From positions 6,373-70,372 of the forward strand of contig JACKBM010000036.1 of assembly GCA_020634575.1 (NCBI GenBank): DNA of 64,000 nucleotides. Reading direction: 5' to 3'. The stretch is from Ardenticatenales bacterium. GTDB taxonomy: Bacteria; Chloroflexota; Anaerolineae; Promineifilales; Promineifilaceae. Made by a program: the position numbers and the translations under genes. This document shows positions 3,063 to 28,812 of the stretch, piece after piece; within the stretch, counting starts at the first letter, position 1, and the number at the start of each line of letters is the position of its first letter. Under the pieces are notes generated by a model. That model was given only the letters and a program-made list of their open reading frames with translations. It searched no databases and had not been told where the DNA came from.

Positions 3063-3095
3063 CAGCCTGCCAACAGGCAAATAACAGTTGTCAAA

Positions 3096-3130
3096 AAAAG
3101 AGGGATCACCTGTTGGGGTGATCCCTCTTG
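3096..3130. terminator. Stem-loop after the spondin gene, probably bidirectional terminator
   Basis: An 11-12 bp stem (GAGGGATCACC with GGTGATCCCTC) is closed by TGTTG. It has seven A on the left, which would be a U-tract for minus-strand transcripts, but only a weak T run on the right. It lies between the convergent spondin and thioesterase genes. Confidence 0.65.
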
Positions 3131-3317
3131 CATTTATCTAGCTCCAACTCTCGTTCTGGGGCTCCGCCCCAGGTTGTCGCCCAGCTTGCCCTGAGGCCGC
3201 CGCAGGGCTCTGCGCCCTACTCTTTCCATGGATACCTATCGATACCCAGGCAATTCCCAAAAACGGCAGCGACGCCCTGCATATGACGCCAACGGCGATT
3301 TAGCCCGAAGAACCCGC

Positions 3318-27561: not shown

Positions 27562-27858
27562 ATGTTGTTTTTGCCCTTGCAGCAAACGTTTCGCAGTTTG
27601 CAGTTTAAGGTGCAAGTTGTTCCCCGCGCCCAAGATAACCAGATTGTCGGCCTGACCGAGGACGGCCTTGCCGTCGGGTTAAAAACGCCGCTCAATCGTG
27701 ATACCAACCGGGCACTTATCACGACGCTGGCACGCCATTTTGGCGTATCTGCCCAGCAGTTAACCCTGATCCAGGGCTTTCGCAGCCTGGAGAAAACGGT
27801 GGCCGTGGTTGGTGTTACAGCCCAGGAGTTGCATTCACGGTTACAACTGGTAGCCTGA
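27562..27858 (+). CDS. DUF167 (YggU-like) protein
   Basis: The 98-residue protein matches the DUF167 pattern: VQVVPRAQDNQIVG, LKTPLNRDTNRALITTLARHFGV, and LIQGFRSLEKTVAVVG in place of the usual E-I-V-S-G-E-T-S-R-x-K. Its function is not known. AGGAGG lies at 27551-27556, so the ATG at 27562 is used; the GTG at 27556 overlaps the ribosome site. It ends the yggS cluster. Confidence 0.85.
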   Translation: MLFLPLQQTFRSLQFKVQVVPRAQDNQIVGLTEDGLAVGLKTPLNRDTNRALITTLARHFGVSAQQLTLIQGFRSLEKTVAVVGVTAQELHSRLQLVA

Positions 27859-27995: not shown

Positions 27996-28024
27996 TTGAC
28001 AACAACTGTGAACTTTGCGATAAT
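27996..28024 (+). promoter_or_regulatory. Near-consensus promoter of a candidate small RNA
   Basis: TTGACA (27996-28001), exactly 17 bases, then GATAAT (28019-28024). This is the closest match to the sigma-70 consensus that I found in the window, yet it is not followed by a recognisable protein gene. Confidence 0.8.
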
Positions 28025-28030
28025 TATCTT

Positions 28031-28134
28031 GGCTCCCCCCGGAGGTGTGTAGAATAAACTCCCGTTTATGAAGCACCTCAATTTGGCTCCCCAGAAGAGC
28101 CCCGCATGCGCCCGCGTCGGGGCTCTTCCCTTTT
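28031..28134 (+). ncRNA. Candidate small regulatory RNA with exposed UCCC motifs
   Basis: A transcript of about 104 bases is framed by a strong promoter (start expected near 28031) and an intrinsic terminator (AAGAGCCCCG 28095-28104 with CGGGGCTCTT 28118-28127, then TCCCTTTT). Predicted fold: GAGGTG (28042-28047) pairs with CACCTC (28074-28079), enclosing ATAAAC (28054-28059) paired with GTTTAT (28064-28069). The loop is exactly UCCC. Two more C-rich segments, GGCTCCCCCC (28031-28040) and GGCTCCCC (28085-28092), lie outside the stems. Repeated single-stranded UCCC is typical of sRNAs that pair with GGGA or Shine-Dalgarno sequences, such as staphylococcal RsaE. A 31-codon frame from ATG 28068 has no ribosome site and runs through the terminator. 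It does not match SRP RNA or tmRNA features that I know. Confidence 0.6.
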
Positions 28135-28272
28135 CTAGCGACCACCTTCTTTACCCCTGAAAAACAGACAACAATTGAGTGCGTCCGTAGCGCCGTTTGT
28201 TTGGTTTGCAGTTCCCCTGATCTCCGTTGCTGCTGACGCTCTCAAGTCACCAAATCTGCAATGGAGTTTCAT
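28135..28272. other. Short intergenic leader before the phosphatase gene
   Basis: After the candidate RNA there are about 138 bases without a recognised promoter. GGAG at 28263-28266 serves as ribosome site for the ATG at 28273. Confidence 0.4.
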
Positions 28273-28812
28273 ATGGAATGGCTCACTGGCTTTCCGGCCG
28301 GTCGCCTGCTCACCAGCGCACGCCCTCGTGGCGGTGACTGGCTGCAAGTTGATCTCGCCTACTGGCAGCGCTATGGTGCGACCGACATCCTCTGCCTGTT
28401 AACCCAAACTGAACTCGAAGAACTTGATCTGGACCAGGAAGCCCGAGTCTGCCAGGAACTGGGCCTGCATTGGCACCATTTCCCCATCCGTGACAGACAC
28501 GTTCCGACTTCTCTGGAAGAGGCGTACCGACAGGCGCGACACTGCGCCAATCGGCTGCAGGCAGGTGCGGCAATCATTGTTCACTGCCGTATGGGTCTGG
28601 GCCGCAGCACGCTGATGGCGTCTGCAATCATGGCGCTGGGCGGCATCAGCCCGCGCCAAGCGTTGCGGCAGATCGGGGATTCGCGCCGTCTACCGGTCCC
28701 TGATACCAGTGCGCAGCGCGACTGGATCTTTGCCTTTGCCCGGCAATACGGTATCAGTCAGATGATCAAAGCGACTGATAATAGTCACAATCCCTTTGCA
28801 GGGGACAAATAG
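28273..28812 (+). CDS. Dual-specificity/tyrosine phosphatase-like protein
   Basis: The protein of about 179 residues contains the cysteine phosphatase P-loop HCRMGLGRS (HC-x5-RS; nucleophile Cys, phosphate-binding Arg) near residue 115. An Asp in FPIRDRHVP, upstream, could be the general acid. The size and the region before the loop (TDILCLLTQTELEELDLD) fit compact dual-specificity phosphatases. The substrate is unknown. ATG 28273 is preferred because GGAG lies six bases before it; an ATG at 28261 contains that ribosome site. The 3' end overlaps the convergent endonuclease III gene by 47 bases. Confidence 0.87.
   Translation: MEWLTGFPAGRLLTSARPRGGDWLQVDLAYWQRYGATDILCLLTQTELEELDLDQEARVCQELGLHWHHFPIRDRHVPTSLEEAYRQARHCANRLQAGAAIIVHCRMGLGRSTLMASAIMALGGISPRQALRQIGDSRRLPVPDTSAQRDWIFAFARQYGISQMIKATDNSHNPFAGDK

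Follow-up and report, generated by a model that had tools for sequence, protein, structure and literature searches.

Tandem modules of a putative C-rich small RNA family conserved in one order of Chloroflexota

Organization of the locus

Between the last gene of a yggS-yggT-yggU cluster and a gene for a dual-specificity-type phosphatase, both of which serve here as context, the window (the whole stretch of 64,000 nucleotides that was analysed) carries a strong promoter-like sequence followed by two C-rich hairpin modules (Table 1). The TTGACA-17-GATAAT promoter reported in an earlier note on this DNA is present at that place and scores 11/12 in a promoter scan, with a TG upstream of GATAAT; the surrounding 1-kb region contains three promoter-like sites, compared with a mean of 0.4 in shuffles. 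The RNA is predicted to start at about 28029-28031, and the 5' end of a discrete RNA of 55-60 nt, or about 105 nt in the tandem form, would be expected at UUGGCUCC. The -10 element ends at 28024 and GCUCC starts at 28032, in agreement with the spacing that characterizes the family described below (6-8 nt between the end of the -10 element and GCUCC).

Table 1. Features of the locus, with coordinates in the window.
Feature	Position	Strand	Description
YggU family (DUF167) gene, upstream flank	27562..27858	+	Last gene of the yggS-yggT-yggU cluster; PF02594, PF02325, PF01168; context only
Promoter	27996..28024	+	TTGACA 27996-28001, 17-nt spacer, extended -10 GATAAT 28019-28024
Module 1	28029..28082	+	GGCUCCCC block and UCCC-loop hairpin, without U tract; R1 28.4 bits; R2 36.0 bits, E 1.2e-6
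First GGCUCCCC block	28031..28038	+	Near the predicted 5' end
Hairpin 1	28042..28079	+	28042-28048 with 28073-28079; 28054-28059 with 28064-28069; internal loop between; apical UCCC 28060-28063
Module 2	28083..28137	+	GGCUCCCC block and GCCC-loop terminator hairpin; R1 39.9 bits; R2 48.1 bits, E 1.9e-9
Second GGCUCCCC block	28085..28092	+	
Hairpin 2/terminator stem	28094..28128	+	15 pairs, 28094-28109 with 28114-28128, one bulged base; apical GCCC 28110-28113
Weak terminator tail CCCTTTTC	28129..28136	+	At most four T in a row
Dual-specificity-type phosphatase gene, downstream flank	28261..28812	+	PF05706 and others; context only

The segment 28029-28137 consists of one module in tandem duplicate, a feature absent from the earlier reading: each copy begins with a 5' GGCUCCCC block that is followed by a hairpin closed by C(U/G)CCCG, and the terminator is the hairpin of the second module. 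The nested hairpin with the UCCC loop was confirmed, and the two further segments that had been noted, both GGCTCCCC, are present at 28031-28038 and 28085-28092. The terminator lies where it had been placed, but the proposed 10-bp stem gives way to one of 15 pairs with a bulged base; this hairpin has a GCCC loop of its own, so that the region contains two C-rich loops. With a UCCC loop and two single-stranded CUCCCC blocks, the window displays an arrangement of the LhrC/RsaE type. The predicted fold of the RNA at 28030-28135 has an energy of -45.8 kcal/mol (z -4.28), equalled by 1 of 200 shuffles. The terminator was missed by a simple terminator scan; its U tract reads CCCTTTTC, with only four consecutive T, versus T7-T8 in many relatives. 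A 30-codon ATG frame spans 28068-28160. Taken alone, GGCTCCCC shows no excess over chance in the window (4 occurrences compared with 4.13 expected), so that relatives had to decide, and it is mainly through them that the element rises above chance.

The phosphatase has eight related proteins at E <= 1e-15 in a large protein search, one of them 98% identical and the others at most 46%. No relatives of it were found in viral contigs, and those found elsewhere are few and distant, a poor guide to homologous loci. Plasmid records produced no match.

Homologues and their distribution

The best matches to yggS, at about 62%, came from the genomes G390, G361, G395 and G184. The asparaginyl-tRNA synthetase of the window matches at 100% (rounded) an enzyme from a MAG labelled Anaerolineales bacterium and at 78% an enzyme labelled Candidatus Promineifilaceae. 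Asparaginyl-tRNA synthetases from the order of G390, represented by 56 genomes, reach 77% to that of the window, and those of G001 and G002 reach 68%. Among these enzymes, those of G184 and G500 are 99.8% and 94.8% identical, respectively, to proteins labelled Promineifilaceae, and that of G380 is identical to a protein labelled Anaerolinea sp. The order that holds the closest relatives is probably Promineifilales, which includes sludge filaments; we can only infer this assignment because the protein labels are not unanimous.

A DNA search of this order aligned the first module over a long stretch with four genomes (G500, 9e-6; G302, 2.5e-4; G184, 0.003; G349, 0.73). All four loci contain a promoter, GGCUCCCCCCC, a long hairpin with a GCCC loop and a T run, which is missing only after the first G500 module. 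A covariance model built from G184 and G349 alone (R1), with neither window module in training, matched the two window modules separately and detected the element in 45 of the 56 genomes of the order, the weakest best match having an E-value of 2.6e-5. A second model (R2) was built from 94 copies, including window module 2 but not module 1; it recovered both window modules (Table 1), the next best match in the window reaching 13.2 bits, and added G284, extending the family to 46 of the 56 genomes. The 13.2-bit match, third in rank, lies at 3091-3133 on the minus strand; it looks like a strong terminator, a hairpin followed by a long run of T, and has no C-rich block. Of 99 matches, five were left out of the covariation alignment at E 1e-5, namely four antisense matches and window module 1. 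The copies analysed below number 104, that is, 102 from the 46 genomes and the two window modules, the weak matches G257:C444 and G355:C243 not being among them; most are single modules of about 55-60 nt behind a sigma70-type promoter.

The spread of the family is narrow. Among 396 genomes sampled across the class, 33 have a match at E <= 0.01, 29 inside the order and 4 outside it (E 6.7e-6 to 0.0055), which corresponds to approximately 29 of 34 order members versus 4 of 362 others when membership is counted by genome handle. In a phylum-wide sample, 2 of 231 genomes match at E <= 0.001, both from the order. The class and phylum searches used stricter Infernal filters, so that weak distant relatives could be missed. 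The four matches outside the order (G075, G230, G321 and G106) were put down to terminators that are probably unrelated; GCUCCC is absent from the alignment of G075.

Covariation, fixed C-rich segments and conserved promoters

Across the 87 distinct rows of the alignment, 98.8% of the helix cells are paired, and 15 of the 16 pairs have changed on both sides. Double-changed cells number 347, compared with 95.5 +- 11.6 in shuffled alignments, and slid controls never exceeded 68. Fitting the alignment to the structure works in favour of covariation, but the margin is very large. The earlier note had suggested a search for covariation in related genomes at the position between the yggS cluster and the phosphatase gene; the helix does covary within the order, but 30 yggS loci contained no homologue next to that gene. 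In L118 and L119, blastn gave weak matches upstream of yggS; both were rejected, their surroundings reading, by eye, as coding sequence.

GCUCCC occurs within the first 14 nt of 103 of the 104 copies, GGCUCCCC is found in 80, and the loop C(G/U)CCCG in 92 (CGCCCG in 84 and CUCCCG in 8), although the copies were found with a model that contains both block and loop, so that the apparent constancy of both is inflated. The 5' CUCCC is predicted to be unpaired with a mean of 0.94 (104 copies) and the loop with a mean of 0.99 (93 copies). The stem drifts while the C-rich segments stay, as would be expected if these segments did the work. Variants of the 5' block that keep GCUCCC include GCUCCCCGCCC in G499 and G310 (L240-L242, L250, L251) and UAGGCUCCCUCU in G207 and its kin (L246, L249, L253, L260).

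Leaving aside the two inner modules and two further copies whose upstream sequence was too short, 65 of 100 copies have a promoter-like site scoring at least 9/12 at about the equivalent position, compared with 1.8% of shuffles that kept base composition only. The -10 element of the best promoter-like site ends 7 or 8 nt before GCUCC in 62 of 94 rows. Given the promoter at a fixed distance, the 5' end of the RNA is probably at the C-rich block or immediately beside it. A closed frame of at least 8 codons was found in only 15 of 103 copies; between a kept reading frame, which the earlier note had named as the competing outcome, and the stems with their C-rich loops, the scarcity of frames and the helix covariation favour the latter.

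The copies fall into two types that differ at the foot of the stem, GAGAUG in type A and GAGGUG in type B. Exactly one copy of each type is present in 23 of the 46 genomes, and four to eight copies in five genomes (G284, 4; G499, 5; G207, 6; G355, 7; G310, 8), these copy numbers being lower bounds, with R2 applied to the class and phylum samples only. For copy numbers, type A was defined by GAGAT or GAGGTAC, and for the genomic contexts below, by GAGAT. Among the loci examined, two-module tandems occur only in the window and in G500. No U tract follows the inner hairpin of either, so that one transcript could run through to the second module.

Altogether, the homologues, the covariation and the conserved promoters lend strong support to the original proposal of a small RNA with exposed UCCC-type motifs. 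To the extent that genome comparison can show it, the family, its fold, the conserved place of its promoter, its spread in one order and its two paralogue types are established, and we infer that the RNA is transcribed.

Comparison with known RNAs

A search of the whole window against Rfam 15 (4227 models) produced 0 matches at gathering score. At E <= 5, the segment 27950-28200 matched only sR32 (13.8 bits versus a gathering score of 40), and at E <= 1, four homologous loci (L146, L147, L148 and L162) gave a single, unrelated match to Thr_leader. Thus, these searches detected no sequence homology to LhrC or RsaE, nor to the 6C RNA, the model of which presumably belongs to the set searched. 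The statement that no such RNA has been described in this group held against Rfam 15 and against the literature that we covered on C-rich and UCCC sRNAs, small RNAs of Chloroflexota and structured-RNA surveys, which included few subscription papers. The kind of RNA, a trans-acting C-rich sRNA, is known, whereas the family and its reduced, concatenable form are apparently uncatalogued.

RsaE/RoxS share the UCCC motif with the present family, but are a Firmicutes family that differs from the Chloroflexota one in size and fold and was not matched by Rfam here. The loops of the 6C RNA carry runs of six C, whereas those of the present family read C(G/U)CCCG, and the main block of the present family is the 5' single strand. 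In the accessible text of the respective reports, RsaE/RoxS of Staphylococcus and Bacillus use the UCCC motif against Shine-Dalgarno regions (PMC4132741), and the actinobacterial 6C RNA (B11) targets a G tract of a 5' untranslated region through two C-rich hairpin loops (PMC10470900). The nearest described design, as far as these texts extend, is that of the multicopy RNAs LhrC1-5 of Listeria monocytogenes, in which UCCC occurs both single-stranded and in hairpin loops, that of the terminator among them; the LhrC RNAs are 111-114 nt long, exist in five nearly identical copies, are controlled by LisRK and bind Hfq (PMC4132741), whereas the family described here consists mostly of RNAs of 55-60 nt with diverged stems, in genomes with no Hfq over the cut-off (0 of 56). 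Chloroflexi-1 RNA (RF01698), listed in the accessible part of a survey as a structured RNA candidate from Chloroflexus aggregans, a member of Chloroflexota (PMC2864571), has an Rfam accession and differs from the present family in that, apart from the unrelated hit above, neither the window nor the four loci searched gave a match to any Rfam family.

Mode of action, potential targets and RNA-binding proteins

With a probability of roughly 0.6, we interpret the element in the window as a stand-alone sRNA of about 105 nt, composed of two tandem modules of a conserved family, the C-rich seeds of which pair in trans without Hfq. By analogy, this would most likely be a trans-acting sRNA that works through its C-rich seeds like LhrC, RsaE or the 6C RNA. 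Each module would expose GCUCCC(C) as an unpaired block and C(G/U)CCCG as the loop of a hairpin, and the hairpin of the last module would also end transcription. The fixed seeds may pair in trans with G-rich stretches of a restricted number of mRNAs, whose translation or stability would thereby be altered; the covarying stem would only hold the seeds out and terminate the RNA. Hfq (PF17209) was found over the cut-off in 0 of the 56 genomes of the order, with one sub-threshold match in G275, so that such pairing would be Hfq-free, perhaps assisted by KhpA/KhpB; proteins with KhpA/B domains are present in all 56 genomes.

Potential targets were sought at guessed gene starts, defined as the first ATG of frames of at least 120 codons, in two genomes of the order. 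AGGAG is 11- and 31-fold enriched before these starts (400 kb from each genome), and GGGAG mildly so, at 3.9-fold (6 of 304 genes) and 3.1-fold (8 of 309). Sites complementary to GCUCCC are not enriched at the 613 guessed starts in parts of the two genomes, the numbers being small: the counts are 4 for GGGAGC (rank 16 of 30 permutations), 3 for GGGGAG (rank 3 of 6), 2 for GGGAGCC (rank 15 of 105) and 0 for GGGGAGC. Shortly before ATG, the perfect 10-base site GGGGGGAGCC was found in 26 of the 56 genomes, at 57 sites compared with 29 in a reversed control. Without the 14 sites that correspond to antisense strands of sRNA copies, 43 are left, only a moderate excess over 29. Inspection of 30 of the GGGGGGAGCC loci revealed no convincing gene start. 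A crude filter marked 6 of these 30 as antisense strands of sRNA copies, L295 probably wrongly; of the 24 left, L294 opens a frame of 203 codons and is a possible exception. A general masking of Shine-Dalgarno sequences is therefore not supported by the pattern, k-mer enrichment or permutation tests; a regulator that pairs with Shine-Dalgarno regions, as originally suggested, is still plausible by analogy with LhrC and RsaE, and a small regulon of such targets is possible. GCUCCCC (28031-28038 and 28085-28092) is also complementary to GGGGAGC of what we take to be helix 24 of 16S rRNA, a seven-base match that could easily be due to chance.

The lack of enrichment at gene starts speaks also for a different role, in which the repeated C-rich segments would recruit or titrate an RNA-binding protein, with copy number and tandem modules setting the dose; CsrB/RsmZ recruit or titrate CsrA in this manner, through another motif. 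A fixed motif that recurs both in the loop and in single-stranded sequence, a copy number of up to 8 per genome and the ubiquity of KhpA/B domain proteins in the order agree with such a role. However, all this evidence is negative or generic, and the C-rich loops of LhrC and B11/6C act by base pairing in the published text accessible to us; hence, we regard protein binding as an unlikely, if respectable, alternative.

Genomic context

Most copies cannot be plain terminators of the upstream gene, which points away from the RNA in 50 of 93 contexts. A role as a cis-acting leader or attenuator, with the hairpin serving as a conditional terminator in the 5' untranslated region of the downstream gene, would fit 29 of 93 contexts, where a same-strand gene of a single carboxylesterase cluster (PF02230 in the one member scanned) follows next, in most cases at a distance of no more than 60 nt. 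Against it, the next gene is convergent, that is, opposed to the RNA, in 45 of the 93 contexts, including 21 of the 25 type A copies; the downstream genes vary between copies, those at type A copies including DinB_2 and Clp-type ATPase genes; no alternative antiterminator pairing was seen; and in L202, L214 and L219, a -10-like sequence was noticed by eye between the terminator and the esterase ATG. We judge a cis-acting role to be quite improbable. The carboxylesterase loci include L147, L202, L206, L214 and L219, and in some of them the position of the -10-like sequence suggests an esterase mRNA with little or no leader.

A chance combination of a promoter with an ordinary terminator, or a small reading frame, without an RNA function, for which one could cite the commonness of GGCTCCCC in the window and the 30-codon ATG frame, is hardly credible in view of the covariation, the conserved promoters, the conservation across the order and the scarcity of closed frames among the copies.

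Discussion

If the modules are, as we favour, sRNAs that act in trans through C-rich seeds, a broader interpretation can be offered, which we advance tentatively and consider doubtful as a whole: an order-wide pair of minimal sRNAs, each reduced almost to a promoter, a C-rich seed at the 5' end and a terminator that carries a second seed in its loop, might constitute a global, Hfq-free post-transcriptional system, in which the module can be concatenated via loss of the inner U tract, as in the window and in G500.

The analysis delineates a sharply defined putative sRNA family for an order of Chloroflexota, with no such RNA in Rfam or in the literature searched. If the proposed function is correct, sRNAs with C-rich seeds would have arisen outside Firmicutes and Actinobacteria, without a recognisable Hfq, and reduced to a seed and a terminator. 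The covariance model and the two paralogue types make the family directly testable in existing metatranscriptomes.
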